Below the pieces are notes generated by a model, which saw only the letters and a list, made by a program, of their open reading frames with translations, was not told the origin of the DNA and did no database searches. Made by a program: the position numbers and the translations under genes. Positions 33,903 to 47,640 of a DNA stretch of 64,000 nt are shown piece by piece (within the stretch, counting starts at the first letter, position 1; every line of letters begins with the position of its first letter). Origin of the DNA: Streptomyces sp. NBC_00483 (lineage in GTDB: Bacteria > Actinomycetota > Actinomycetes > Streptomycetales > Streptomycetaceae); contig NZ_CP107880.1 in the NCBI RefSeq assembly GCF_036013745.1, forward strand, positions 9,610,001 to 9,674,000, given 5' to 3'.

Positions 33903-34655
33903 ATGAGCGATGACATGCTCGGCCGCGGGCTCAGGCTGCTCACCACGCTCTCCCGCCACCCCGAGGGCCTCGGCGTCAGCGCCGCCGCGCGCGCCGCGCA
34001 GCTGCCGGTGAGCAGCGCCCACCGGCTGCTCGCCCGGATGACCGAAGAGGGCTTCGTCGTCCACGACTCCAGCGCACGCACCTACGCCCTGGGGCTGCGC
34101 GCCCTGGAGCTGGCGCACGGCTTCCATCGGACGCCGGCCGGGTTCAACCATCTCCTCGGCCCCATGCGGCAGTTGGCGGAGCGCACGGGCCTCGTCGTCA
34201 TCGCGGGCATCCTCGACGGCGACCAGGTCCTCCTCGTCCGCTCCGTGCAGGGCAGCCAGCACCTGCAACTGCGCAGCGACGAGGGCACCCGCAACCCCTG
34301 GCACGCCACCTCGCTGGGCAAGGCCCTCGTCGCGGCCCGGCCCGAGGCCGACCAGGAGCGCCTGCTGGCCGGTCCGCTGCCGCGCAGCGCGCCCAACACG
34401 CTCAGCGACCCGGACGAGCTGCGCGCCGAACTGGCCCGCGTCCGGGAGCTCGGCTGGGCGGAGGCCGAGGAGGAGAACGAGCGCGGGGTCCGCTCCATCG
34501 CCGTGTGCGTCCCCGCCGCCGACCCGGACGGCGGGCCGCCTCAGCTCGCCCTCTCCCTCGGCGCCACCGTCGTCCTCACGGGCCGCGAGGAACTCCACGA
34601 CATGGTTCCGCTGTTGCAGACGGCGGCGCGGGAGGCGGCGGCGTACGGCAGGTGA
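33903..34655 (+). CDS. IclR family transcriptional regulator
   Basis: This is a 250-residue protein: an N-terminal winged helix (residues 1-65, LGVSAAARAAQLPVSSAHRLLARMTEEGFV) and the C-terminal IclR effector domain with RNPWHATSLGKALVAARP and GWAEAEEENERGVRSIAVCVP. It is encoded 63 bp after the MFS gene on the same strand. It is the likely ligand of the TTTCC-N7-GGAAA boxes upstream. It converges on coxG with 12 bp between. Confidence 0.92.
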   Translation: MSDDMLGRGLRLLTTLSRHPEGLGVSAAARAAQLPVSSAHRLLARMTEEGFVVHDSSARTYALGLRALELAHGFHRTPAGFNHLLGPMRQLAERTGLVVIAGILDGDQVLLVRSVQGSQHLQLRSDEGTRNPWHATSLGKALVAARPEADQERLLAGPLPRSAPNTLSDPDELRAELARVRELGWAEAEEENERGVRSIAVCVPAADPDGGPPQLALSLGATVVLTGREELHDMVPLLQTAAREAAAYGR

Positions 34656-34667
34656 CCGTCGTACGGG

Positions 34668-35357
34668 TCACCCTTGCCGGCGCAGGTCCTTCACGCGCAG
34701 GTCCTTCAGCTGGGCCGACTGTGCCCGCAGCTTGCCGAACAGCCACCCCTGGACGAGCCCGACGGCGAGACCCGCTGCGGCCGGGCCGTACTTGGCCAGG
34801 AGCGGTCCCGCGACCAGCGACAGACCGTCGAGTTCGGCGGGTGCGGTGGGAGTCCCGGTGGTCGCGGCCTTGGGCTGTGCCGTCGAGACGGGGGCGGCAC
34901 CCGTGGCGGACCCCTGGTCGAGCAGCAGATTCCCGAGGTTCTGCGCGAACTGCTGAAGGATCCGGTCCGAGACCGTGGCGATCGCGCCCTTGCCGAACTG
35001 GGCCAGCTTGCCGCGGATCAGCAGATCCGTACTGAGCTCAAGACGTGCGCCCTCCGGGGCCTCGCCGATGTCCAGGACCACCTCGGCCTCGGCGTCACCG
35101 TTGCCGTGGGTGTCGGCGCCGCTCGCGTGCACGCGCAGCCGGCGCTTCTCCGCGTCGACCTCCAGGAACCGCACGGTGCCCGCATACGCGGCGCTGATCG
35201 GTCCCACCTTGACCTTGACCGCGCCCCGCCAGGCATCGCCGTCCCGGCCATCGAGGGCCGCGCCCGGCATGCAGGACGCCACCTTCTCCACGTCGCTGAC
35301 GAGCGCGAACACCGCGTCCGGGGCGGCGTTGACGACGACGGTGTTGGTCAGCTGCAT
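34668..35357 (-). CDS. CoxG-like SRPBCC family protein
   Basis: This is a 229-residue protein. Residues 1-150 are a CoxG domain (AAPDAVFALVSDVEKVASCMPGAAL, GTVRFLEVDAEKRRLRVHASG, LIRGKLAQFGKGAI). A Pro/Ala-rich linker follows, then a C-terminal hydrophobic helix (GPAAAGLAVGLVQGWLFG, about 200-217) that may anchor it to the membrane. CoxG proteins help mature or anchor molybdenum hydroxylases. The start is ATG 35357, which overlaps the 2Fe-2S subunit gene by 10 bases. It is the last gene of the nicotinate hydroxylase operon. Confidence 0.9.
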   Translation of the reverse strand: MQLTNTVVVNAAPDAVFALVSDVEKVASCMPGAALDGRDGDAWRGAVKVKVGPISAAYAGTVRFLEVDAEKRRLRVHASGADTHGNGDAEAEVVLDIGEAPEGARLELSTDLLIRGKLAQFGKGAIATVSDRILQQFAQNLGNLLLDQGSATGAAPVSTAQPKAATTGTPTAPAELDGLSLVAGPLLAKYGPAAAGLAVGLVQGWLFGKLRAQSAQLKDLRVKDLRRQG

Positions 35358-35887
35358 GCTGTCTCCTCGATTGCGGTGCAGGTCTTGGCGCAGCCGGCGC
35401 GGCGGGCCGTGGCGCAGGAGTCGATCGCCTCGACGATGGTCTGGTAGCCGGTGCACCGGCACAGGTTGGCGGCCACGACCTCCCGGATCTCCTCCTTGGT
35501 GGCCTCCGGACGCTCGGCGAGGAAGCCGTCCGCGAGCATCAGGAAACCGGGTGTGCAGAAGCCGCACTGCAGGCCGTGGTGTTCGGTGAACGACCGTTGC
35601 AGATCGTTGAGTTCACCGGTCGCCGGGTCCGCGAGGGACTCGACGGTACGTATCCGGGCGCCCTCGGCCTGCGCGGCGAACATCAGGCAGGCCCGCGCGG
35701 GCCGGTCGTCGACCAGGACCGTGCAGGCCCCGCAGATGCCGTGCTCGCAGCCGACATGTGTGCCGGTCAGACGCAGATCGTGGCGGAGTACGTCGACGAG
35801 GGTGCGGCGCGGCTCGGTGATCACCTCGTGCTCCTCGCCGTTGACGTTCAGGGTGAGCAGGAGCAGGTTGTCCGGGGTGGTGGTCAT
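35348..35887 (-). CDS. Molybdenum hydroxylase small subunit, two [2Fe-2S] clusters
   Basis: This is a 179-residue protein. The plant-type ferredoxin domain has CEHGICGACTVLVDDRPARAC, and the helical domain has GLQCGFCTPGF plus NLCRCTGYQ: eight Cys for two clusters, as in CoxS/XdhC-type subunits. An extra tail (about 27 residues) holds four more Cys (SCATARRAGCAKTCTAIEETAC), which is unusual. The start ATG 35887 overlaps the large-subunit stop (ATGA). It passes electrons from the molybdenum site to FAD. Confidence 0.93.
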   Translation of the reverse strand: MTTTPDNLLLLTLNVNGEEHEVITEPRRTLVDVLRHDLRLTGTHVGCEHGICGACTVLVDDRPARACLMFAAQAEGARIRTVESLADPATGELNDLQRSFTEHHGLQCGFCTPGFLMLADGFLAERPEATKEEIREVVAANLCRCTGYQTIVEAIDSCATARRAGCAKTCTAIEETACS

Positions 35888-38298
35888 GAAGTGGGCTCCA
35901 GGTTCAGGGCGCGGTGCACCGTCTCCGGGGTGATGGGGGTGTGGTCGAGTTCCACAGCCGTCGGCCGCAGCGCGTCGTTGACGGCGTTGAGGACCGCGGC
36001 GGGCGCGCCGATGGTGCCGCCCTCGCCCGCGCCCTTGGCGCCGGTCTCGTTGAACGTGCACGGCGTTTCGAGGTGGTGGATGAGCACGTCCGGGATCTCG
36101 TGGGCGGTCGGCACCTTGTAGTCCATGAAGCTGGTCGCCGACGGCTCGCCCTGCGCGTCGTACGTCACCTGCTCGAAGAGCGCGCCCGCGATGCCCTGGG
36201 CGATGCCACCACGGCACTGCCCCTCCACGACCTGCGGGTTGATGGCGACGCCGCAGTCCTCGACGCACACATAGCGCAGGATCTCCACCTGCCCGGTGCC
36301 CTGGTGGAGTTCGACGACGACGGCGTGGGTGGCGTTGGAGAAGGTGCCGTCGTTGAACACGTCGAAGGTGGCGGTGGCGCTCAGTCCCGGCTCGATGTCA
36401 CGGGGCAGCAGGTGGGCGCGCAGATACGCGATGTCGGCCAGCTCCTCGTACGTGAGGAACGCGGGGTCACTGCCGTCCTTGCGCCGCACGCCGCCGCGCG
36501 TCAGCTCCACCTCGGCCGGCTCGGTCTCCCAGAGCGCCGCCGCGATCCGGCACAGCTTCTCGCCGAGCTTGGCGGCGGCGATCCGTACCGCGCTGCCGCC
36601 GATGGTGACGGAGCGGCTGGCGAAGGTGCCGTAGCCGTACGTGACGCGGTCGGTGTCGCCCTGATGCAGCTTCACCTTGCCGAGTTCCAGGCCGAGTTCG
36701 TCGGCGACGATCTGCGCGAACGTCGTCTCGTGGCTCTGCCCGTGGCTCATCGTGCCGCTGGTGACGGTGACCGCTCCGCTGGTGTCCATCCGCACCTCGG
36801 AGATGTCGAAGCCGGGGACGACCTGCATCTTGCGCTGGGCGAAGGCCGTGGACCCGTATCCGGTGCGCTCGCTGAAGCAGGAGTAGCCGATGCCGAGGTA
36901 CCGGCCCTCGGCCGCCGCGGCCGCTTGCTTCTCGTACCAGCCCTCGTCCTTGACGAGCCGCTCGCACAGGTCGAGCGACTCCAGGTAGGAGCCCGGGTCG
37001 TACGTGATGTTGTTGACGCCCGTGTACGGGAACTCGGTGATGACGTTGCGGCGACGGATCTCGACCGCGTCGAGGCCCAACTCGCGTGCGGCGCGCTCGA
37101 AGAGACGCTCCATCACCATCACGTACTGCGGACGGCTCACTCCGCGGTACGGGGCGGTGGGCGCCTTGTTGGTGGTGACCGCACGGCCGCGCACCCGGTA
37201 GGCGGGCACCTTGTAGACGCCGGGCATCTCCGCCGAGGCCATCAGCGGCTCGATGCCCGCGGTGAACGGGTAGCAGGAGTACGCACCCATGTCGCACACC
37301 ACGTCCGCGTCGAGCCCCAGGATGTGCCCGTCCGCGTCGAAGGCGGCCCGCACGTCGTAGTGCTGCTCGCGGGCGAGGAACGACGCGGAAAGCGCGTCCT
37401 TGCGGTCCTCGATCCACTTCACGGGCCGGCGCAGGCGCAGCGCGGCGGCTGCCGCGGCGATCTCCTCGCGGCCCACGACACACTTCTGGCCGAAGCCGCC
37501 GCCCATGTCGGGCACCACGACCCGCACCGCCCGCTCGTCCAGGCGCAGACACCGGGAGGCCACCGTCCGTACCTGGTGCGGTACTTGGGTGCAGGTGTTG
37601 AGGACGAGCTGTTCCTCCCGGTCGTCCCAGTGGGCGACGGCCCCACGCGTCTCCAGGGGGAGCGCGTTCTGCCGACCGGTCCGCGACTCGACATGAACGA
37701 CACACTCGGCGGCGTCGAAGACCTCGTCGATGCCCTCCGTGGCGAACAGGGAGACGTCCACCAGGGTGTTGCGCGTGGCCTCCTCGTGGACGAGCGGGGC
37801 GCCGGGCGCCAGGGCCTCGTTCTCGGAGGTCACCGGGGGCAGCGTCGTGTAGCGGACCTTGGCCGCCTCCAGGCCGTCCTCCGCGGCGTACGCGTCGCGC
37901 GCCACCACGATCGCGACGGGCTCCCCGACGTAGCGCACCCGGTCACGGGCGAGCACCGGCATGGCCGTGGGCACGAACTCCGAGCGGGGGCGGCCGAGTT
38001 CGGCCGTGATGTCCGTCAGCTCCAGGTCCTCGGCGGTGAAGGCCGCGACCACGCCCGGCACCTCACGCACCGCCGTCAGATCGACGGAGGCGATCTCGCC
38101 GTGCGCGACCGTGCTGCGCACGAACTGGGCGTGCAGCATGCCGGGCAGCGCGATGTCGTCGACGAACCGGCCGCGCCCGGAAAGGAGTCGCGGGTCCTCA
38201 CGGCGTGCCACCGACCGCCCGGTCAACCGCCCCTTGTCGTCTGCCGGGTGTGTCTTCGGCGCATCCGGACGCGTCATGGGCGAATCGGGGTGTGTCAT
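35884..38298 (-). CDS. Molybdenum hydroxylase large subunit, predicted nicotinate hydroxylase
   Basis: This is an 804-residue XdhB/CoxL-family protein. It has the N-terminal GRSVARREDPRLLSGRGRFVDDI, the molybdopterin contact GGGFGQKCVVGREE, and a C-terminal loop GAKGAGEGGTIG holding the catalytic Glu. The CO dehydrogenase active-site motif (AYxCSFR) is absent, so CO is not the substrate. Its operon shares an operator-like element with the nicX-C-F-DR-E operon. Hydroxylation of nicotinate to 6-hydroxynicotinate is therefore the best assignment, though another N-heterocycle is possible. ATGA overlaps join it to both neighbours. Confidence 0.85.
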   Translation of the reverse strand: MTHPDSPMTRPDAPKTHPADDKGRLTGRSVARREDPRLLSGRGRFVDDIALPGMLHAQFVRSTVAHGEIASVDLTAVREVPGVVAAFTAEDLELTDITAELGRPRSEFVPTAMPVLARDRVRYVGEPVAIVVARDAYAAEDGLEAAKVRYTTLPPVTSENEALAPGAPLVHEEATRNTLVDVSLFATEGIDEVFDAAECVVHVESRTGRQNALPLETRGAVAHWDDREEQLVLNTCTQVPHQVRTVASRCLRLDERAVRVVVPDMGGGFGQKCVVGREEIAAAAAALRLRRPVKWIEDRKDALSASFLAREQHYDVRAAFDADGHILGLDADVVCDMGAYSCYPFTAGIEPLMASAEMPGVYKVPAYRVRGRAVTTNKAPTAPYRGVSRPQYVMVMERLFERAARELGLDAVEIRRRNVITEFPYTGVNNITYDPGSYLESLDLCERLVKDEGWYEKQAAAAAEGRYLGIGYSCFSERTGYGSTAFAQRKMQVVPGFDISEVRMDTSGAVTVTSGTMSHGQSHETTFAQIVADELGLELGKVKLHQGDTDRVTYGYGTFASRSVTIGGSAVRIAAAKLGEKLCRIAAALWETEPAEVELTRGGVRRKDGSDPAFLTYEELADIAYLRAHLLPRDIEPGLSATATFDVFNDGTFSNATHAVVVELHQGTGQVEILRYVCVEDCGVAINPQVVEGQCRGGIAQGIAGALFEQVTYDAQGEPSATSFMDYKVPTAHEIPDVLIHHLETPCTFNETGAKGAGEGGTIGAPAAVLNAVNDALRPTAVELDHTPITPETVHRALNLEPTS

Positions 38299-39143
38299 CG
38301 GCTCATCGCCTCCTCACAGGCACGCAGGACCAGCGTGCGGACAAGCTGCTTGCGGTAGTGCGCGCTGCCCGAGGCGTCCGACGGGGGCTCGACGGCATCG
38401 GCCGCCGCCTCGGCGCAGTCGGCGAAGGTGCCTCCGTCCGCGAGCACCGCCTCCGCCTCCGGCACCCGGACCACCGAGGCCGCGACCCCGCCGAGCGCCA
38501 CCCGGCCGCCGTGCACCGAGCCGTCGGTGACATCGAGGTCCACGGCGGCGGACACCAGCGCGAAGTCGCCCTGGCGCTCGGCGAACTCGGTGAGCGCGGC
38601 GTGCGGGGCCGGGCGCGGGAAGACGACCTCGACCAGCAGCTCGTCGGGATCGAGCACGCTGGTGTAGTAGCCGAGGAAGAAGTCCCCGGCCGCGACGCGG
38701 CGCTCACCGCGTGGCCCGCGGGCCACGAACTCCGCCCGGAGCGCGAGCGCGAGCAGACACCACTCGGCGGTGGCGTCGGCGTGCGCGATGCTGCCGCCGA
38801 TCGTGCCGCGCGTCCGGATGGGAAGGTGCCCGATCCACCGCATGGCCTCGCGCAGCACCGCGAACTCGCGGCCGAGCACACCCTCCGGGTCGCTCTCCAC
38901 CGTGTGATGGGTGGTGAGCGCCCCGATGTGCAGCGCACCCGTGGTGTCCCGGTGCATGCCGTCGAGTTCGCGCAGGCCGCCGATGTCGACCAGGTGGCCG
39001 GGCCGCGCGAGCCGGAAGTTCATCATGGCGACCAGGCTCTGGCCGCCGGCGATGACCTTCGCGTCATCGCCGAGCTCGGCCAGGAGCCGGGTGGCGCCGT
39101 CGACGTCACGAGCCCTGTGGTAGCCGAAGGGGGCTGGTTTCAT
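38295..39143 (-). CDS. Molybdenum hydroxylase FAD-binding subunit
   Basis: This is a 282-residue CoxM/NdhF-type protein. The FAD contacts KVIAGGQSLVAMMNFRLARP (about residues 33-52) and TRGTIGGSIAHADATAEWC (about 107-125) are clear, and the CO_deh_flav_C domain follows. It is normal in size. ATG 39143 lies inside the 3' end of the MFS gene, an overlap of 38 bp in another frame. It passes electrons from the iron-sulfur subunit onward. A FAD subunit distinguishes this enzyme from Pseudomonas NicAB, which uses cytochrome domains. Confidence 0.93.
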   Translation of the reverse strand: MKPAPFGYHRARDVDGATRLLAELGDDAKVIAGGQSLVAMMNFRLARPGHLVDIGGLRELDGMHRDTTGALHIGALTTHHTVESDPEGVLGREFAVLREAMRWIGHLPIRTRGTIGGSIAHADATAEWCLLALALRAEFVARGPRGERRVAAGDFFLGYYTSVLDPDELLVEVVFPRPAPHAALTEFAERQGDFALVSAAVDLDVTDGSVHGGRVALGGVAASVVRVPEAEAVLADGGTFADCAEAAADAVEPPSDASGSAHYRKQLVRTLVLRACEEAMSR

Positions 39144-40545
39144 GGTTCTCCTGGTCTTCCTGGTTTTCCTGTCGCGGGGATGGCCGGCCGCCGCCGTCGT
39201 GGTCCGTGTCGTCCAGCTCCCGGCCCTTCGTCTCCGGCGCCGCCACGGCCATCCAGCCGACGGCGAGGAGCACGGCCGCGCCGAGCACCGCGAACGTCAA
39301 CGGAAGGCCCAGCAGGGGCCACAGCACCGAGCCGAAGAACAGCGGGGCGAACCCGGTGAGTGCCCGGCTGACCGAGGAGGCCCAGCCGAAGCCACTGGCC
39401 CGCAGTTCGGTCGGGTACAGCTCGGAGACGTACGCGTACAGGGCGGGGATGGCGAGTTGGGCGAGGAAGCCGAACACGCCGATGGTGATGACCGAGCCGG
39501 TCGGCATGTCCCGCACGATCGCGAAGATCACGAGGGCGAGCGAGGCGACCGGGGCCGAGACACCGATCAGCCACTTGCGGCCGACCAGGTCGACCAGGGC
39601 CGTCGAGACGAGGACGCCGATGATGCCCACGCCGCTCATCAGCGTCGTGCTCATGAAGGCGGCCGTGTCACCCTGCCCCTCCTCCTTGAGGATCGACGGC
39701 ATCCAGCTCAGCGCCGCGTAGTAGACGAGCATGATGGTGGCGAACAGCAGCCAGGCCGCCGAGGTGATGCGCGGGCTGAACGACCAGATGTTGCGCAGCT
39801 GTTGGGCGGCCGCGGCCACCCCGCGCGGACCCTCGTCCGGTACCGGCTCGGGGATGACGTACGGCTCGACGGGCGCGCCCGTGCGGGCCACCAGGTCGTC
39901 GATGACGGTCCGTGCCTCGGCCTCGCGGCCCTTCTTCGTCAGGTAGATGGGTGACTCGGGGATGCCGCGGCGCGCCCAGAACAGCAGCAGCGCGGGCAGC
40001 ACCATGGTGGCGAGCATCCAGCGCCAGTTGCCGTCGAGGGACAGCATGCCCGTGGACACGAGCCCGCACAGGGTCACCCCCACCGGCCACCAGGCGTCGA
40101 GCGCGGTGAGGACCCGGCCCCGGTACTTGCGCGGCGAGAACTCGCCCACCAGCGCGTAGTCGACCGGGATGCAGCCGCCGAGCCCGACTCCCGCGAGGAA
40201 CCGCAGCAGCAGGAAGACCGGGTACGTGGGGGAGAGCGCGCCCAGGACCGAGAACAGGGCGAAGATCAGCAGGGTGACACTGAACGCCTTCTTGCGGCCG
40301 ATCCGGTCCGCGACCGCGCCCCAGGCGATGGCACCGACGGCCATGCCCACCAGGTTGGCGGTGGCGACGAGCCCTCGGGCACCGAGGGACAGGTCGAAGT
40401 GCTGGCCCAGGAGCGGCATGAGGAAGCCGTTCAGGGCGATGTCGTACGCGTCGAAGAGGTAGCCGAGACCTCCGATGATGAAGATCTTTCCCTGGACGTT
40501 CCATCTCCAGGGGAGATCCTGAACGATCTGATCGCCTGTTCTCAC
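39106..40545 (-). CDS. MFS transporter, probable nicotinate/aromatic acid carrier
   Basis: This is a 479-residue protein with 12 helices. FDAYDIALNGFLMPLLG in TM1 and GAVADRIGRKKAFS after TM2 match the AAHS/sugar-porter-like carriers of aromatic acids. RFLAGVGLGGCIPVDYALVGEFSPRKYRGR is the second signature. It is the first gene of the hydroxylase operon and is therefore the likely nicotinate importer. The C terminus is a hydrophilic tail of about 35 residues (Asp/Glu/Gln/Asn-rich). Its gene overlaps the FAD-subunit gene by 38 bp. Confidence 0.88.
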   Translation of the reverse strand: MRTGDQIVQDLPWRWNVQGKIFIIGGLGYLFDAYDIALNGFLMPLLGQHFDLSLGARGLVATANLVGMAVGAIAWGAVADRIGRKKAFSVTLLIFALFSVLGALSPTYPVFLLLRFLAGVGLGGCIPVDYALVGEFSPRKYRGRVLTALDAWWPVGVTLCGLVSTGMLSLDGNWRWMLATMVLPALLLFWARRGIPESPIYLTKKGREAEARTVIDDLVARTGAPVEPYVIPEPVPDEGPRGVAAAAQQLRNIWSFSPRITSAAWLLFATIMLVYYAALSWMPSILKEEGQGDTAAFMSTTLMSGVGIIGVLVSTALVDLVGRKWLIGVSAPVASLALVIFAIVRDMPTGSVITIGVFGFLAQLAIPALYAYVSELYPTELRASGFGWASSVSRALTGFAPLFFGSVLWPLLGLPLTFAVLGAAVLLAVGWMAVAAPETKGRELDDTDHDGGGRPSPRQENQEDQENHETSPLRLPQGS

Positions 40546-40665
40546 GTGCGCTCCACAGGGTCGTGTCGGGGACGAACTGCGACGGGAGGTGCCTGAGTTG
40601 CTGATGAGGCGGGGGAGCGGGCGGTGCGGGTGCTTCGGGGGAGACAGTCAGTGCGCGGACTGAGG

Positions 40666-40696
40666 TAATCCGAGCACGTACGAATTTGCTTGGCAA
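40666..40696 (-). promoter_or_regulatory. Promoter A of the nicotinate regulon with conserved 18-bp element
   Basis: On the minus strand TTGCCA (complement of 40691-40696), a 17-bp spacer and TCGGAT (complement of 40668-40673) precede the MFS gene by about 120 bp. The 18-mer TAATCCGAGCACGTACGA (plus strand 40666-40683) is identical to 46208-46225. It covers the -10 and spacer, as expected for a repressor site. Confidence 0.7.
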
Positions 40697-40726: not shown

Positions 40727-41485
40727 TCACGGCGCGGTCGGTCCGGCCAGCAGGCGGCCCGCGTTCGGCGCCAGCGGCGGCAGGCCCAGCTCGGACAGGA
40801 TCCGGTACGCCGTGGCGGTGGCCGCCGACAGGACCGGGAGCCCCAGCTCGTCCTCGACCGGCTGGATCGCCGGCAGGGACGGCATCTGTACGCAGGCGGA
40901 CAGCACCAGCGCGTCCGCGTCGCCGAGCTTCAGGCGCTTGTAGTGCTCGCGCAGGTCCTGCGGGTCGAGCCGGGCGACGGCCAGGTTGTCCGGCACCTCC
41001 AGGCTCAGCGCGTCCACCACCTCGACGCCCGCGTCCTCGATGTAGTCGGCGACCTTCTGGGTCAGCGGCTTCATGTAGGGCGTGACGATGGCGACCTTCT
41101 TGGCGTCGAGCGCGGCGATCCCGTCGAGCAGTGCGCCGGCGCTGGAGACCACGGGGACCAGTGCCTCCTGGGCGCGCAGCACGTCCTTGATCTCGTCCTC
41201 GGCCGTGCAGTGGTGGCCCGGGCCCTGCGCCATGATGGCGACGAGGCAGGCCGTCGCCACGACGTCCGGCCGGGCGTCGGCCAGCTCCAGGACCGCGCGC
41301 TCCGTCTGCGCGTTCATCGCCCGCAGCTCTTCGGGGGTGACGTGCTTCATGCGCATCCGGCTGCTGTGGAAGACGAAGCGGTCCTCCGGGGAGACGGCCT
41401 CGCGCGCCCGCATCAGGCGGGGGAGTTCGGTCTCCATCGTGAGGTTCGAGCTGGGGACGATCATCCCTATGTGATGGTCTGTCAT
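40727..41485 (-). CDS. nicE: Maleate cis-trans isomerase (NicE)
   Basis: This is a 252-residue Asp/Glu racemase-fold enzyme. GMIVPSSNLTMETELPRLM and FHSSRMRMKHVTPEEL are diagnostic of maleate isomerase. The two catalytic cysteines are Cys80 (VATACLVAIMAQG) and Cys198 (LVLSACVQMPSLP). It converts maleate to fumarate, the last step of nicotinate degradation. I chose ATG 41485, which has GGAG 6-7 bases upstream. An ATG 24 bases earlier lacks one. It is the last gene of the nicX-C-F-DR-E operon. Confidence 0.93.
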   Translation of the reverse strand: MTDHHIGMIVPSSNLTMETELPRLMRAREAVSPEDRFVFHSSRMRMKHVTPEELRAMNAQTERAVLELADARPDVVATACLVAIMAQGPGHHCTAEDEIKDVLRAQEALVPVVSSAGALLDGIAALDAKKVAIVTPYMKPLTQKVADYIEDAGVEVVDALSLEVPDNLAVARLDPQDLREHYKRLKLGDADALVLSACVQMPSLPAIQPVEDELGLPVLSAATATAYRILSELGLPPLAPNAGRLLAGPTAP

Positions 41486-41563
41486 GATTCGCTCCAGGTT
41501 TTTGGGCATGCTTGATGAGGGCGGGGGCCTGCATGTCCTCTTCGGGCGGGTCGGTGGCGGAGG

Positions 41564-43009
41564 TCAGTGCTGCTGACCGAGCCGCTCCCAGTGGTCGGCG
41601 AGCACCGCCAGGTGCCGCAGGACGTCGGCGCGCTGCTCCGCCGGGATCGGCCGCAGTAGCTCCTCGTCCAGCTTGCGGGCCCGCAGGTTCGCGTCGTGCA
41701 CGGTGGCGCGGCCCTCCTCCGTGAGGTTGAGGAGCTTGCGCCGCGCGTCGGCGGGGGAGGGGGCGCGGGACAGCAGGCCCCGGTTCTCCAGGCGCCGGGC
41801 GACGTCGGCCATCGTCGAGGTGTCGAGCGCGGCGAGCGCGGCGATGGAGCGCTGGTCGCAGCCGGGGTTCTCGCCGATGATCTGCAGGACGGCGAACTGC
41901 GGCCCGGTCAGCGTCGCGTCGACGTCGTGCAGCCACGCGGCGAGGTACGCCTGGTACAGCCGGCGGGCCAGGAAGCCCGGCGCGTGGGTGAGTTCGTCGG
42001 GCGCGGCGACGTCGTCGGCCTGGCTGGGGGTGGAGGGCGAGGTCATGGCACCGCTGTCGTGTGGAGGGATCGAGTGGGCCTCCGGCTCCGGGGAGAGGGT
42101 CTGCCGCAGCGCGGTGCGCAGCAGGTCCAGGGCCGTCGCCGGGTTGTCCCAGAAGACCATATGTCCCGCCGCGGGGATGCGAACCATGCGCGCCGCCGGG
42201 TTCGCGGCGGTGGCCTCCGCGGCGCCCTCGGCGGTGACGACCGGGCTGTCGGCCCCGTACAGCAGCGTCGTGGGGCCCGGCACCTGGGGCCACCAGGCGA
42301 AGAAGTCCTCGCTCTCGAAGCCCCGGTGGGCGCGCTCGATCGCCTCCAGGCCGCAGCTGGCGAGCCAGCGGGCCCGCAGCTCCAGCTCCCGGCGCGGCCA
42401 CGTCGGCCAGAAGCCGCCGACCTCGTCGGCATCCGTGCCGCGCTGGGCTTGCGACAGCTGGCGCGTGAACGCCGCGAGCGTGGTCGGGTAAGGCCCCCGG
42501 CTCGGGCCGCTCATCGGCGGGTCCACCAACAGCGTTCCACCGAGCGGGACATGGCTCCGCACAGCGGTGGCGGCGGCGATCCGGGCACCCATGGAGTGTC
42601 CGAAGAGCACGGGGTCCGCCAGCTCCAGCTGCTCGATCACGGCTTCCGTGTCGGCGGCGAGGGCGTCGAGCGAGTGGTCCTCCGCGTCGTCACTGAGGCC
42701 GCGGCCGCGGATGTCGAGGACCAACGGCCTTGCCAGGTCCGTCAGTTCACGGGCGACGAAGTCCATGGTGATCGCCGGGCTGGTGATGCCGGGCAGGATC
42801 AGCAGGGGGACGCCTTCGCCGCCGTAGTCCAGCACGTGCAGCCGCACGTCCCCGCTGCGGGCCCAGCGGCTGACGGCCGGGATGTCGGCGAGGTCCGCGA
42901 GGCCGGGCTGCGTCAGGTAACGCTCCGGCCGTCGGGCCTCGCGGTCCTGAGCGGCATCCTGTCCGGCATCCTGCGCGGCATCTCGTGCGGCTCCGGAAGA
43001 CGCGTTCAT
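41564..43009 (-). CDS. nicD: N-formylmaleamate deformylase fused to a MarR regulator (NicD-NicR fusion)
   Basis: This is a 481-residue fusion. Residues about 50-305 are an alpha/beta hydrolase that matches NicD closely: LPGITSPAIT, LDIRGRGLS, nucleophile Ser139 (GHSMGAR), Asp163 (LVDPPMSGP) and His283 (AGHMVFWD). The Ser-to-Asp spacing of 24 is the same as in Pseudomonas NicD. Residues about 335-481 are a MarR winged-helix protein (LTGPQFAVLQIIGENPGCDQRSIAALAALDTSTMADVARRLENRGLL, then DARRKLLNLTEEG), the family of NicR. Pseudomonas encodes the two separately. No stop or frameshift separates them. An in-frame Met322 (nt 42046) could also give free MarR protein. The N terminus has an AAQD-like repeat. 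Confidence 0.85.
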   Translation of the reverse strand: MNASSGAARDAAQDAGQDAAQDREARRPERYLTQPGLADLADIPAVSRWARSGDVRLHVLDYGGEGVPLLILPGITSPAITMDFVARELTDLARPLVLDIRGRGLSDDAEDHSLDALAADTEAVIEQLELADPVLFGHSMGARIAAATAVRSHVPLGGTLLVDPPMSGPSRGPYPTTLAAFTRQLSQAQRGTDADEVGGFWPTWPRRELELRARWLASCGLEAIERAHRGFESEDFFAWWPQVPGPTTLLYGADSPVVTAEGAAEATAANPAARMVRIPAAGHMVFWDNPATALDLLRTALRQTLSPEPEAHSIPPHDSGAMTSPSTPSQADDVAAPDELTHAPGFLARRLYQAYLAAWLHDVDATLTGPQFAVLQIIGENPGCDQRSIAALAALDTSTMADVARRLENRGLLSRAPSPADARRKLLNLTEEGRATVHDANLRARKLDEELLRPIPAEQRADVLRHLAVLADHWERLGQQH

Positions 43010-43013
43010 GATC

Positions 43014-43664
43014 TCAAACCCCCTTCGTCGTCAGGTACTTCACCATGTCCTCGTGGCCCACGACATCCCCGTACTTGGCCTGGATGTCGAAGAGCGCCGC
43101 CTCATGCGGCCCCGCGGCCCGGTCGCCACAGGCCTCGGCGGGCACGAGGACCGGCCAGCCGTACTGCACCGCGTCCACCGCCGTGGCCCGCACACAGCCG
43201 CTCGTCGTGGCGCCGCAGACGACCGCCGTGTCGCAGCCGAGGCCGGTGAGCAGGGAGGCCAGCGCGGTGCCGAAGAACGCCGACGCGCCCTTCTTCACGA
43301 TGAACTGGTCCCCCTCCTCGTACGGCAGTCGGGGGTCGAGGGCGACGGCCTCGCCGCCTTCGCGCAGCGCCCGCATGCCGGGAGCCTTGGCGAGCCAGGT
43401 GACCGCGTCGCCCTCGGCCTCGGCGGCCGTGTAGGCGATGACCGTCCACACCACGGGTACGCCGCCGGTGCGGGCCGCGCGCACCAGCTCCGCCGTGGCC
43501 TCGACGGGGGCGGTCAGATCGCTGCCGGTGGTGAAGCCCGGCTCGGTGAAGCCGCGCGTCAGGTCGACCACGATCAGGGCGGGACGGTGGCCGCGGGCGA
43601 CGGCGGCGCCGAACCCGGCGCGTTCGTAGACGCGGTCGGTGGCGGGGTCGTACGGGGTGGGCAC
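43014..43664 (-). CDS. nicF: Maleamate amidohydrolase, isochorismatase family (NicF)
   Basis: This is a 216-residue cysteine hydrolase with the catalytic triad Asp34 (LIVVDLTRGFTEPG), Lys124 or Lys125 (FIVKKGASAFFGT) and Cys157 (GATTSGCVRATA). These are the isochorismatase/N-carbamoylsarcosine amidase motifs, and the pattern with the N-terminal YERAGFG resembles NicF. It converts maleamate to maleate and ammonia. It lies 4 bp before the nicD fusion and after nicC in the same operon. Confidence 0.92.
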   Translation of the reverse strand: MPTPYDPATDRVYERAGFGAAVARGHRPALIVVDLTRGFTEPGFTTGSDLTAPVEATAELVRAARTGGVPVVWTVIAYTAAEAEGDAVTWLAKAPGMRALREGGEAVALDPRLPYEEGDQFIVKKGASAFFGTALASLLTGLGCDTAVVCGATTSGCVRATAVDAVQYGWPVLVPAEACGDRAAGPHEAALFDIQAKYGDVVGHEDMVKYLTTKGV

Positions 43665-43724: not shown

Positions 43725-44996
43725 TCAGTGGTGGTGGCGGTAGGCGAAGGACTCGTCGTCGGAGGTGTCCAGCGGGGTGCCGCGCCACAGCCAGTCGTAG
43801 GACACGTCGGACTCGCCGTCGTAGCGCTCGCCGAGCTTGGCGTCGCGGGCCTGCTGCTCCGGACCGTCGGGGAAGCGGTAGAAGACCTGGTTGCGCAGCG
43901 AGGCCTGCTGCACCATCCCGGCGTGCCGGGCGCGGCGGTTGACGTACCGCTGCAACGCGCCGGGGATCCCCTCGCGGGTCACCGCGCCCAGCTCCTCGGC
44001 GAGCACGGCCCCGTCCTCCATGGCCTGCGAGGCACCCTGCGCCTGGTAGGGGAGCATCGCGTGGCAGGCGTCGCCGAGAAGGGCCACGCGGCCGTCGACC
44101 CAGTTCGGGTCGCGGCGGCGGTGGTAGAGCGGGAAGCAGGTGATGTCGCCCTTGGCCTTGGCGAGCATGGCCGGCGCGCGGTCGTCCCACTCCGCGTAGG
44201 CGTCGACGAGCATCTCGGTAGTGCCGGAGAAGGTGGTCTTCTCGCCGTACTCGTCCTTCCACGGGACGCAGCCGACGATGTTGAGCCACTCGCCGCCGCG
44301 GATCAGGTAGTGGACGAGATGGCGCCCGGGCCCGTACCAGATGGTGCTCTGGTAGCGGTCGAAGAGGAAGCGGGTGGCCGGGTCGGCGTGCAGCAGCTCG
44401 CCGGGTATCAGCGTGCGGAAGGCCATGTCGCCGGAGAAGACCAGGGTGTCCTCGGCGCCGATGAGGTCGCGGACGCGGGAGTGGATGCCGTCGGCGCCGA
44501 CCAGCACGTCGGCCTCGTGCCGGGTGCCGTCGTCGGTGACCGCGACGGGACGGTCCGGGGACGTACGGTCGAGTTCCACGACGCGCGCCCCGGTGACGAT
44601 CTCGACGGCGGGCCCGGGGCCCAGCGGGTCGGTGCACGCGTCGAGGATGGTGCGGTGCAGATCGGCGCGGTGGTAGTGCCAGTAGGGGGCGTTGAACTCC
44701 TCCTGGACACGGCGGCCGAGCGGGGTGAGCCCGATGATGCTGCCGTCCTGCCAGCGGCGGCGCACCTGGTCCTGCGGCTCGGTGCGGATGGCCTCCAGCT
44801 GCTTGCGCAGGCCGAGCCGCATCAGGACCCGGCTGGCGTTCGGTGCGGTCTGGATGCCGGCGCCCACCTCGCCGAGTTCGGCGGCCTGTTCGAGGACGGT
44901 GACGCGCAGTCCCTTGTGGCGCAGGGCCAGGGCGGCGGTGAGGCCGCCGAGACCGCCGCCGACGACGGTGACTTCGTAGGACTGGCTGAGAGGCAA
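43725..44996 (-). CDS. nicC: 6-Hydroxynicotinate 3-monooxygenase (NicC)
   Basis: This is a 423-residue class A flavoprotein monooxygenase: FAD loop VTVVGGGLGGLTAALAL (residues 9-25), GAGIQTAPNASRVL, the DG motif VLVGADGIHSRVRDL and the second FAD motif VALLGDACHAMLPYQAQGASQAMEDG. By fold it could also be a salicylate hydroxylase. Its place between nicX and nicF makes decarboxylative hydroxylation of 6-hydroxynicotinate to 2,5-dihydroxypyridine the likely reaction. Confidence 0.88.
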   Translation of the reverse strand: MPLSQSYEVTVVGGGLGGLTAALALRHKGLRVTVLEQAAELGEVGAGIQTAPNASRVLMRLGLRKQLEAIRTEPQDQVRRRWQDGSIIGLTPLGRRVQEEFNAPYWHYHRADLHRTILDACTDPLGPGPAVEIVTGARVVELDRTSPDRPVAVTDDGTRHEADVLVGADGIHSRVRDLIGAEDTLVFSGDMAFRTLIPGELLHADPATRFLFDRYQSTIWYGPGRHLVHYLIRGGEWLNIVGCVPWKDEYGEKTTFSGTTEMLVDAYAEWDDRAPAMLAKAKGDITCFPLYHRRRDPNWVDGRVALLGDACHAMLPYQAQGASQAMEDGAVLAEELGAVTREGIPGALQRYVNRRARHAGMVQQASLRNQVFYRFPDGPEQQARDAKLGERYDGESDVSYDWLWRGTPLDTSDDESFAYRHHH

Positions 44997-45036: not shown

Positions 45037-46068
45037 TCAGCCTTCGACGAGGTGTCCGCCGGTGACGACGTCGGTGCCGTCCAGGCTGACGGTGCAGCCG
45101 CGCATCGCGATGTCGAGGTGGGCGTAGGAATCGCGCTGGAGGTGCGGGTGCGGACCCGTGGACCAGAGGAAGTTGCCGGCGAAGGCGCGGGCGTCCATGC
45201 CCATCAACTCGTCCTTGCCGTACATCGCGGTGGCGAACCAGTCGGCGGACTTCATCAGGCCCCAGCCCATGTGGGAGAGGCTGCGGGCCCACTTGTCGTG
45301 CGAGTCCTCGAAGAAGGTGTTCAGCAGCTTGGCCTCGGCGCCGCCGGTGACCTCCTGGATGTGGCCACCCGAGACATGGAGCGTGACGGGACGCTGGACG
45401 TACTCCTTGAACGGCAGCAGGATGTCGCCCTCCGCGAGCACGATCCGCCCGTCGGAGATCTCCGGCCAGCACAGCACCATGGTGCTCGGCCAGTGGTCCC
45501 AGCGGCCCGGGTCGTCGGCGAAGCCGGTCTGGAACTCCGGGTGGGAATCGGCCAGTTGGACCGTCAGGTCCGTGCCGGCCTCGGAGGTCACGCGCATGAC
45601 GGAAGACGTACGGACCCGGTCCACGCCCTCCTGGACGCGCACCTTGTCCTGCTCGTTCGGCAGGTTGCGGATGAGGACGTCGGGCGCGTCGCAGACGAAG
45701 ATGATGCGGGTGCCGGTCTTGAGGATGTCCTGTTGCAGCGGGGCGTGGATGAAGCCCTCGCGGGTCAGGTCCACGACCAGGTCGGCCGCCTTCAACAGCT
45801 CCTGCGCGGCAGTGTCGTTGAGGACGGATACGAGGCCGGGCCCTGCCCCGGTGTGGGTGCTGGGCAGCGGGGCCGGGCTGCCGCCGGGCACCGTGGCGGA
45901 CACGACGTGGGCGCCGAGGCTCTTGGCGGCCCCGAACGCGGCGGCGACGTAGTCACCACGGCTGCCGGGCTCGGAGAGCACGACGACGTGCTCTCCCTCG
46001 CGGACCTTGCACAGCTGAAGTTCACGGGTGAAGGCGTCGAGGACGTCGACGGACGAGAAGTCGAACAT
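45037..46068 (-). CDS. nicX: 2,5-Dihydroxypyridine 5,6-dioxygenase (NicX)
   Basis: This is a 343-residue protein of the M29-aminopeptidase-like ring-cleavage family. The iron ligands expected from Pseudomonas NicX (His265, His318, Asp320) align with His266 (LSHMGWG), His317 and Asp319 (SYAHLDIAMRG). HVSGGHIQEVTGG is also conserved. It opens 2,5-dihydroxypyridine to N-formylmaleamate. I chose ATG 46068 (GGAGGAACACC upstream). The extension to 46443 covers the promoter. It is the first gene of the operon, with a leader of about 130 nt. Confidence 0.93.
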   Translation of the reverse strand: MFDFSSVDVLDAFTRELQLCKVREGEHVVVLSEPGSRGDYVAAAFGAAKSLGAHVVSATVPGGSPAPLPSTHTGAGPGLVSVLNDTAAQELLKAADLVVDLTREGFIHAPLQQDILKTGTRIIFVCDAPDVLIRNLPNEQDKVRVQEGVDRVRTSSVMRVTSEAGTDLTVQLADSHPEFQTGFADDPGRWDHWPSTMVLCWPEISDGRIVLAEGDILLPFKEYVQRPVTLHVSGGHIQEVTGGAEAKLLNTFFEDSHDKWARSLSHMGWGLMKSADWFATAMYGKDELMGMDARAFAGNFLWSTGPHPHLQRDSYAHLDIAMRGCTVSLDGTDVVTGGHLVEG

Positions 46069-46425
46069 CGGGTGTTCCTCCGGGAGACGAGCGCGGACGT
46101 ACTGGGCACGTGCGGATGGTGCGGAGGGTGCGAGGGCATGCGGGATCACCGCGGCGGACGCCGTACGGGGGCGCCACCGGGGGTTCTGGCGAACCCGCCT
46201 GCCGAGATAATCCGAGCACGTACGATCTGGGAAATCAAGGGGCGGGTGGCGGGGGTGGGTGCGCGGGACGGTGTGGGCGTGCAGGGAGGTGGTTGTGGTA
46301 ACCCGACAATGTCTCGCGGTGGAATCGGTCGACTCCTCGCCTGATGGGCCTGCTGCTGGCTGGCAAGATCGCAGGGAGGTCAGATCGGCAGCTATGTAGC
46401 ATCTGAACAATGCAAGGAGGCTCGG
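46069..46425. other. 357-bp divergent promoter region between nicX and the ketosynthase gene
   Basis: The left part is the nicX 5' leader. Promoter B sits at 46208-46238. The right part (46240-46425) leads to the ketosynthase gene and ends with an excellent ribosome site AAGGAGG (46414-46420) 5 bases before GTG 46426. I see no open reading frame worth calling here. Confidence 0.6.
46208..46238 (-). promoter_or_regulatory. Promoter B of the nicotinate regulon with conserved 18-bp element
   Basis: On the minus strand TTGATT (complement of 46233-46238), a 17-bp spacer and TCGGAT (complement of 46210-46215) precede nicX. TAATCCGAGCACGTACGA at 46208-46225 is identical to promoter A. CCCTTG-N9 upstream of the element is also shared, so both promoters have the same geometry. 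Confidence 0.7.
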
Positions 46426-47640
46426 GTGACTGGGAACGGTCATGTGCAGGTGACGGGCGTCGGCGCGATGACGCCGCTGGGAGCCGATGCGCCGACGACG
46501 TGGGCGGGGCTGCTGGACGGCACGTCGGGGGTGCGGCTCCTGGAGGAGGAGTGGGCCGCGGAGCTGCCCGTGGGTGTCGCGGCCGGACTCACCGTGGACC
46601 CGGCGTCGCTGCTTCCGCGGCCCGAGGCCAGGAAGCTGGACCGCGGTGAGCAGATGGCCCTCCTCAGCGCGCGCGAGGCATGGCAGGACGCCGGCGCCCC
46701 GCAGGTCGAGCCGGAGCGGCTCGCCGTCGTCATCGGCACTGGGACCGGCGGTGTGCTCACCACGCTGGGGCAGGACGACATCTTCGAAGCCTCCGGGATC
46801 CGCCGACTTTCACCCTTCACCGTCCCCATGCTGATGCCGAACGGGCCCGCGGCCTGGGTGAGCATGGACCTGGGTGCGAAGGGTGGCGCCAGGACCCCGG
46901 TGAGCGCGTGCGCGTCCGGGGCGGAGGCCCTCGCCATGGGGCAGGACCTGATCCGCGCCGGGCGGGCGGACGTGGTGGTCGCCGGTGGTGTGGAGGCGTG
47001 CCTGCACCCCTTCACCCTGGCGGCGTTCGCCCAGATGAAGGCCCTGTCGACGCGGTCCGACGACCCGGAGGCGGTGTCCCGCCCCTTCGACGTCGAGCGG
47101 TCCGGGTTCGTCATGGGCGAGGGCGCGGGCATGATGGTGCTCGAACGCCCCGAGTTCGCGCGGGCCCGCGGCGCACGCGTCCACGGCATGCTGGCCGGCA
47201 GCGCCGTGAGTTCGAGCGCCGACCACATCACGGCATCCGACGCGGACGGCCAGTCCTTCGCCATGGAACTGGCGCTGCGCGACGCCGACGTGACTCCGGC
47301 GGACATCGGGGTCGTGCACGCCCATGCCACGTCCACGGAGTCCGGTGACGTGGCGGAGGCCGAGGCGATCGGCCGCACGATCGGCAGGCACGCCGCGGTC
47401 ACGGCGACCAAGTCGATGACCGGTCACATGCTGGGAGCGTCCGGGACGGTGGGCGCCATGGCCGCGTTGTTCGCGCTCAGGGACGGGGCGTTGCCGGCCA
47501 CGCGCAACCTCGACACACTCGACCCGCGCGTGGACCTGGACGTGGTCTCCGGTGAGCGGCGCTCCGGGCAGTGGTCGGCGGCGCTGGCCAACTCGTTCGG
47601 GTTCGGCGGGCACAACGTGAGCCTGGTCTTCACGGGCTGA
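46426..47640 (+). CDS. Beta-ketoacyl-ACP synthase II-like protein (FabF family)
   Basis: This is a 404-residue thiolase-fold enzyme with the complete Cys-His-His triad: Cys162 (VSACASGAEA), His300 (VHAHATSTESGD) and His334 (TKSMTGHMLGASG). It condenses acyl and malonyl thioesters. It stands alone without an acyl carrier protein or other fatty acid or polyketide genes nearby, so its pathway is unknown. It may be an extra FabF or part of a dispersed lipid pathway. GTG 46426 has a near-perfect ribosome site. Confidence 0.92.
   Translation: MTGNGHVQVTGVGAMTPLGADAPTTWAGLLDGTSGVRLLEEEWAAELPVGVAAGLTVDPASLLPRPEARKLDRGEQMALLSAREAWQDAGAPQVEPERLAVVIGTGTGGVLTTLGQDDIFEASGIRRLSPFTVPMLMPNGPAAWVSMDLGAKGGARTPVSACASGAEALAMGQDLIRAGRADVVVAGGVEACLHPFTLAAFAQMKALSTRSDDPEAVSRPFDVERSGFVMGEGAGMMVLERPEFARARGARVHGMLAGSAVSSSADHITASDADGQSFAMELALRDADVTPADIGVVHAHATSTESGDVAEAEAIGRTIGRHAAVTATKSMTGHMLGASGTVGAMAALFALRDGALPATRNLDTLDPRVDLDVVSGERRSGQWSAALANSFGFGGHNVSLVFTG

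Follow-up and report, generated by a model that had tools for sequence, protein, structure and literature searches.

The N-formylmaleamate deformylase of Pseudomonas putida (NicD, or Nfo in the structure 4l0c) is a stand-alone enzyme without a DNA-binding domain, and the MarR-domain regulators of nic clusters, NicR of P. putida and BpsR of Bordetella, are encoded by separate genes. To our knowledge, few enzymes act as repressors of their own genes, and those few have been studied well. In trifunctional PutA, an autogenous repressor, a catabolic enzyme and a DNA-binding domain share one chain, and the available part of the published account (PMC5293562) describes an N-terminal ribbon-helix-helix domain, a flavoenzyme and membrane switching. 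Here, we describe nicDR, a genuine NicD-MarR fusion located within a nicotinate (vitamin B3, nic) cluster of Streptomyces sp. NBC_00483, in a 64,000-nucleotide stretch of DNA that we call the window. Like PutA, it joins a catabolic enzyme and a DNA-binding domain in one chain, but the protein families are unrelated. On balance, we favour the reading that nicDR is a bifunctional protein, deformylase and autogenous repressor, expressed from the operon that it controls.

The gene is a single reading frame of 481 codons starting with the ATG at position 43009. The first-pass annotation had placed its limits correctly, but the strand had to be changed to minus, since the plus-strand reading of the same interval stops early. 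The third-position GC of nicDR is 0.93, the same as in the adjoining genes. The coordinates of the gene, its parts and its surroundings are listed in Table 1.

Table 1 Features of the nicDR locus (positions in the window)
Feature	Position	Strand	Evidence or remark
Operator-like motif upstream of nicX, CAGATCGTACGTGCTCGGATTATCTC	46204..46229	-	
nicX, 2,5-dihydroxypyridine 5,6-dioxygenase	45037..46068	-	PDB 7cn3, 1.6e-67; start set from the 7cn3 match
nicC-like flavin monooxygenase	43725..44996	-	family matches
nicF, maleamate amidohydrolase-like (isochorismatase family)	43014..43664	-	
nicDR, 481-aa NicD-MarR fusion gene	41564..43009	-	translation, Pfam, PDB matches, codon GC, conservation
NicD (N-formylmaleamate deformylase) domain, residues 29-305	42095..42925	-	
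Ser139 codon	42595-42593	-	
Asp163 codon	42523-42521	-	
His283 codon	42163-42161	-	
Linker, residues 306-341	41987..42094	-	largely predicted disordered
15-nt block GACAGCGGTGCCATG, residues 318-322 (DSGAM)	42044..42058	-	identical in 4 distinct fused genes
MarR (NicR) domain, residues 342-481	41567..41986	-	Pfam, PDB alignment, predicted structure, dN/dS
nicE, maleate isomerase	40727..41509	-	PDB 4fq7, 1.8e-80
Second operator-like motif, upstream of nicT	40662..40687	-	
nicT-like MFS transporter	39106..40545	-	
Three-subunit molybdenum hydroxylase, probable nicotinate hydroxylase	35348..39143	-	substrate inferred from neighbourhood
Molybdenum hydroxylase, FAD subunit	38295-39143	-	
Molybdenum hydroxylase, Mo subunit	35884-38298	-	
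Molybdenum hydroxylase, 2Fe-2S subunit	about 35348-35890	-	

The N-terminal half matches Abhydrolase_6 in Pfam (residues 70-291, 2.4e-17), and its best solved relative is 4l0c (4.1e-50 over residues 53-290), according to its title the S94A mutant of N-formylmaleamate deformylase Nfo from P. putida S16, the two being 36-37% identical across the hydrolase fold. The mutated nucleophile of this structure falls opposite Ser139, and its Asp and His opposite Asp163 and His283, presumably the Ser, Asp and His of the triad as numbered for NicD itself. The Asp and His are invariant in the protein clusters P0001-P0016, and the Ser is found in 14 of the 15 fused ones (P0001-P0015), being Gly in P0015. The C-terminal half matches MarR in Pfam (residues 367-424, 5.3e-13), so that the alignment and the family matches bear out the NicD triad and the MarR domain that had been read from the letters at the start. 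In the predicted structure the hydrolase is modelled with confidence and the MarR core with moderate confidence, and the linker is disordered, with pLDDT below 50 at residues 311-365; the Foldseek and VIA match lists for the whole protein are taken up by the hydrolase half. Both halves look functional, and the NicD half probably hydrolyses N-formylmaleamate.

The MarR half is complete, with the winged helix (Pfam) and both ends that form the dimer helices (model helices 346-362, 431-452 and 457-480, of low confidence at 311-365 and 471-481). Its closest solved structure is PcaV (4fht, 3.3e-24 over residues 334-472), which we take to be a separate Streptomyces coelicolor protein that regulates protocatechuate genes. 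To the separate nicR products of other Streptomyces it is 57-71% identical. No second stand-alone NicR was found in the genome of the strain, where the other MarR matches are at most 40% identical to the fused half. In the available part of the BpsR study (PMC6837509), the ligands of 6-hydroxynicotinate are Tyr15, His23, Arg26 and His32, which align with Asp338, Phe346, Arg349 and Tyr355 of nicDR, so that three of the four are not kept. Two of the three basic wing positions described there are kept (Arg423 and Arg424), while the first is Ala422. P. putida NicR likewise lacks those BpsR ligands, as reported in the same portion of that study (PMC6837509), and their absence from nicDR therefore excludes the BpsR mode of binding, not a NicR-type one.

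The genes from nicX to the molybdenum hydroxylase all lie on the minus strand, and the presence of nicX, nicF and nicE beside nicDR is what is expected of a NicD setting. The best matches of the nicC-like protein are decarboxylating hydroxylases, with 6-hydroxynicotinate 3-monooxygenase ranking lower (4.7e-47). Judged by family, and with presumed substrates, the cluster looks like a complete nicotinate pathway to fumarate. Two other loci with fused genes, L038 and L040, showed no molybdenum hydroxylase in the surrounding DNA that was examined, and these clusters may thus begin at 6-hydroxynicotinate. A beta-ketoacyl synthase gene (46426-47640) is divergent from nicX, and at the far end of the cluster there is a plus-strand gene for an IclR-family regulator (33903-34655), which could be a second, competing regulator of the nic genes.

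The fusion recurs in other strains. A full-length search, with about 8000 candidates scored and the 120 best of 1433 matches retained, gave at least 14 further fused protein clusters (P0002-P0015), 61-98% identical to nicDR. When proteins as long as the fusion were searched with its MarR part, there were 17 matches, 14 of them these same fusions, and the MarR part of P0015 returned 16, namely 14 known fusions (P0015 included) and two MarR-only proteins; about 8000 candidates were scored in each case. The junction is also open in the assemblies L038, L039, L040, L041 and L117, which overlap in strains with the clusters (P0010 is L038, P0012 is L039 and P0015 is L117). An assembly or sequencing error at the junction, which the first-pass annotation had named as one way in which the fusion could be refuted, is itself refuted by these occurrences and hardly conceivable. 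Several candidates were not counted as fusions: P0016 (311 residues) resembles a truncated copy of P0011 with a tail that, we presume, follows an adapter pattern; P0122, P0124 and P0126 are tandem MarR proteins and P0123 is an N-extended MarR protein, all without a hydrolase domain.

Nevertheless, as had been supposed at the outset, the fusion is rare. Of 392 Streptomyces genomes sampled, 30 gave a match at 1e-30 and 26 a NicD match, which is fused in three of these; redrawn Streptomyces samples gave no fusions besides those of the strain itself, G130 and G198. Across actinomycetes, the fused arrangement occurs in 4 of 79 loci from named genomes (L038-L041, all Streptomyces), the loci being taken from the best 80 of 95 relatives. 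Where the genes are not fused, nicR is a gene of its own, adjoining nicD or placed elsewhere in the cluster (ahead of nicC in Pseudonocardia), and for some loci no nicR was found in the DNA fetched around the cluster. Among the matches listed in our literature search, judged by title and the opening of the abstract and with subscription journals mostly outside its range, none dealt with a fusion of NicD to NicR or of MarR to a hydrolase. As far as these searches show, the halves are of known kinds and their combination is new.

A stop-free frame is also shared by nicF and nicD in 7 of 113 adjacent pairs, duplicates included. These loci, from Streptomyces and Amycolatopsis, are L014, L059, L073, L079, L083, L099 and L113 (L014 and L079 have identical MarR rows), and proteins of about 505 residues, P0038 and P0084 among them, join NicF to NicD. 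It seems that the nicF-nicD-nicR trio fuses readily.

In a tree of MarR domains, the fused ones form one clade (SH-aLRT 86, which is below the 95 mark of the program, with few columns), and its sister is formed by the separate nicR genes of L060 and L019, the fork that holds both having a support of 97. In L060 and L019 nicR starts before nicD has stopped, the two genes sharing 8 nt. This tree contains nic-type MarRs only, and so it is no test of relatedness to nic-cluster MarR genes; L001-L003, L009, L010 and L034-L037 were excluded from it, as were MarR matches below 110 bits or 45% identity. In the NicD tree, which of the loci numbered below L038 keeps L017, L019, L021 and L025 alone, the fusions again form one clade (support 94) with an unresolved sister. 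In each of the two trees P0015 branches off at the base of the fused clade, its branch being long and flagged as unsure by the program. The fusion thus looks like an event of single origin, in Streptomyces. Pairwise dN/dS values among four distinct fused genes are 0.12-0.26 for NicD, 0.08-0.26 for MarR and 0.41-1.46 for the linker: the two domains are under purifying selection, whereas the linker is not and evolves nearly neutrally.

The separate nicR genes carry a start element that the fusions lack. The sequence CGTGNTTNAGT, with at most one mismatch, stands 6-8 nt before the ATG of separate nicR genes adjoining nicD in 31 of 35 distinct upstream regions, against a random background of 15 in 3000. 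The four without it are L019, L060, L021 and L025, in which nicR overlaps or abuts nicD; L017 and L042, which are tightly packed too, retain the element. L021 and L025 (G228 and G385) each have two NicR-like matches in the nic region, the first of which abuts nicD and has a degenerate element. By its position, the start element is perhaps a leaderless promoter; leaderless transcripts account for 21% of the primary starts in S. coelicolor in the available part of PMC4895711. The hexamer of the element, however, differs from TANNNT at one base.

In the fusions, the corresponding position has 4-5 mismatches to the element in all six distinct cases, so that expression of the repressor has probably changed. 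This absence from every distinct fusion speaks against the idea that two overlapping genes simply merged without regulatory consequence, both halves being tolerant of the change. Such a neutral merger would have been a short step from the 8-nt overlap seen in the sister of the MarR tree, and it agrees with the nearly neutral evolution of the linker; in addition, the element is already degenerate in that sister, and its loss may therefore predate the fusion. We consider a neutral merger somewhat unlikely. For the autogenous repressor that we favour, the lack of the element, as a probable promoter, would leave its target operon as the only source of the protein.

A candidate binding site was found upstream of nicX, where the core ACG(T/C)G(T/C/A)TCGGAT occurs in both separate and fused clusters. 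Within the 10.24-Mb genome of the strain, the extended motif occurs once without mismatch and once with two mismatches, the two places lying upstream of nicX and nicT in this cluster; these are the only sites with at most two mismatches, two others occur elsewhere at three mismatches, and the reversed control gave none. Over the window and 130 loci, some places having been fetched more than once, 69 of the 70 occurrences of the core are at most 420 nt upstream of a nic gene (50 nicX, 8 nicC, 6 nicE and 5 nicT), with about 1.3 matches expected by chance; the nicX counts are partly by construction, because nicX promoters are where the motif was originally recognized. A palindromic operator is not supported by covariation: the arms pair in 78% of cells, compared to at most 51% when slid, yet in 109 of 500 shuffles the pairing is at least as high as observed, and the palindrome is imperfect. 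Since a NicR-type gene is common to most of the clusters that bear the motif, a NicR-type protein is the likely binder.

The linker contains Met322 (codon 42046-42044), from which the first-pass annotation supposed that free MarR could be released. The codon, presumably the ancestral start codon of nicR, is indeed there, and the peptide around it is unusually conserved. Met322 is found in 13 of 14 main-clade proteins and DSGAMTS in 12-13 of 14 (P0015 and P0016 left out), within an otherwise variable linker, and the 15 nt ending with this codon are identical in four distinct fused genes, in which residues 306-317 just ahead are 17% invariant. This would be consistent with two products, the fusion and a free NicR initiated at Met322, with the free form doing most of the repression. 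At -6.1, however, the anti-Shine-Dalgarno energy of Met322 is average, being close to mid-range for the 103 in-frame internal ATGs compared, and no strong internal ribosome site was found there. The two domains hold invariant runs of equal or greater length (22, 17, 17 and 15 nt), and complete invariance is seen in 7 of 499 five-codon windows. All four block codons are kept, compared to 46-55% elsewhere at conserved residues, which points weakly to a constraint beyond the peptide.

Furthermore, P0013 has no Met at this position, and the linker of the P0015 gene, the most diverged fusion, contains no ATG, GTG or TTG, the nearest in-frame one lying 51 codons before the APG of MarR, at the end of the hydrolase half; the MarR domain of P0015 is thus most simply made as a fusion. 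The release of free MarR is therefore unsupported, and we regard a second product as unlikely. The block may serve as an internal start, a DNA site or a peptide, and a purely fused product, as in the favoured reading, leaves the conserved island around Met322 unexplained.

P0015 (L117) is encoded in a second nic-like cluster of Streptomyces sp. AJS327 and has the Gly for the catalytic Ser139. In this cluster (L117, L125) nicX and nicC precede the fusion and a gene for a zinc-type alcohol dehydrogenase comes after it, and the operator-like motif is present upstream of nicX. In the same strain, L043 is an ordinary cluster in which nicD and nicR are separate genes. P0015 is the strongest evidence for a full-length repressor, from a single genome and on a long branch. 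That the hydrolase domain was retained despite the lost Ser, beside nicX and nicC and with neither nicF nor nicE found within the 16 kb around the fusion, would also fit a different role for it, in which the hydrolase half doubles as a sensor and a substrate or product in the NicD pocket alters DNA binding, as proline does in PutA.

Extra decay of the dead half relative to the MarR half, searched for in P0015, was not seen: the ratio of hydrolase to MarR dN is 1.24-1.37 for P0015 and 1.23-1.93 for the other fusions, so that the hydrolase half is not more diverged, a point in favour of a sensor. On the other hand, dN/dS relative to the other fusions is raised in both halves (about 0.4-0.5 for the hydrolase and 0.3-0.5 for MarR), which makes relaxed constraint on the whole gene possible; only one genome is involved, the domain may have been kept passively because the MarR half is needed, and no rigid coupling is seen across the long linker of predicted disorder. 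We find a sensory hydrolase half quite improbable. The same low expectation applies to its fuller form, in which the NicD domain would be an allosteric sensor of a late pathway intermediate, alongside the MarR ligand, and the AJS327 relative the end state, a pure regulator derived from a dead enzyme.

Returning to nicDR as deformylase and autogenous repressor, we infer a scheme that takes in DNA binding, inducer, repression, catalysis, operon structure and a full-length dimer. A single chain would comprise an active N-formylmaleamate deformylase, a flexible linker and, for the same nicotinate pathway, a MarR repressor of the NicR type. Full-length molecules, dimerized via the MarR half, would bind to the conserved site ahead of nicX, which thereby also precedes nicDR, and to that ahead of nicT. 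The two transcription units would be repressed in this way until a pathway intermediate, 6-hydroxynicotinate by analogy, released the dimers from DNA, and the released molecules would then act as a pathway enzyme. Such a negative autoregulatory loop would tie the amount of repressor to that of the enzyme, at a fixed 1:1 ratio.

The likely intermediate stages of this process appear to be alive today: a separate nicR with its start element, overlapping genes, the fusion, and one relative with a dead enzyme. The evolution of a catabolic enzyme into its own regulator thereby becomes testable by comparing living strains.
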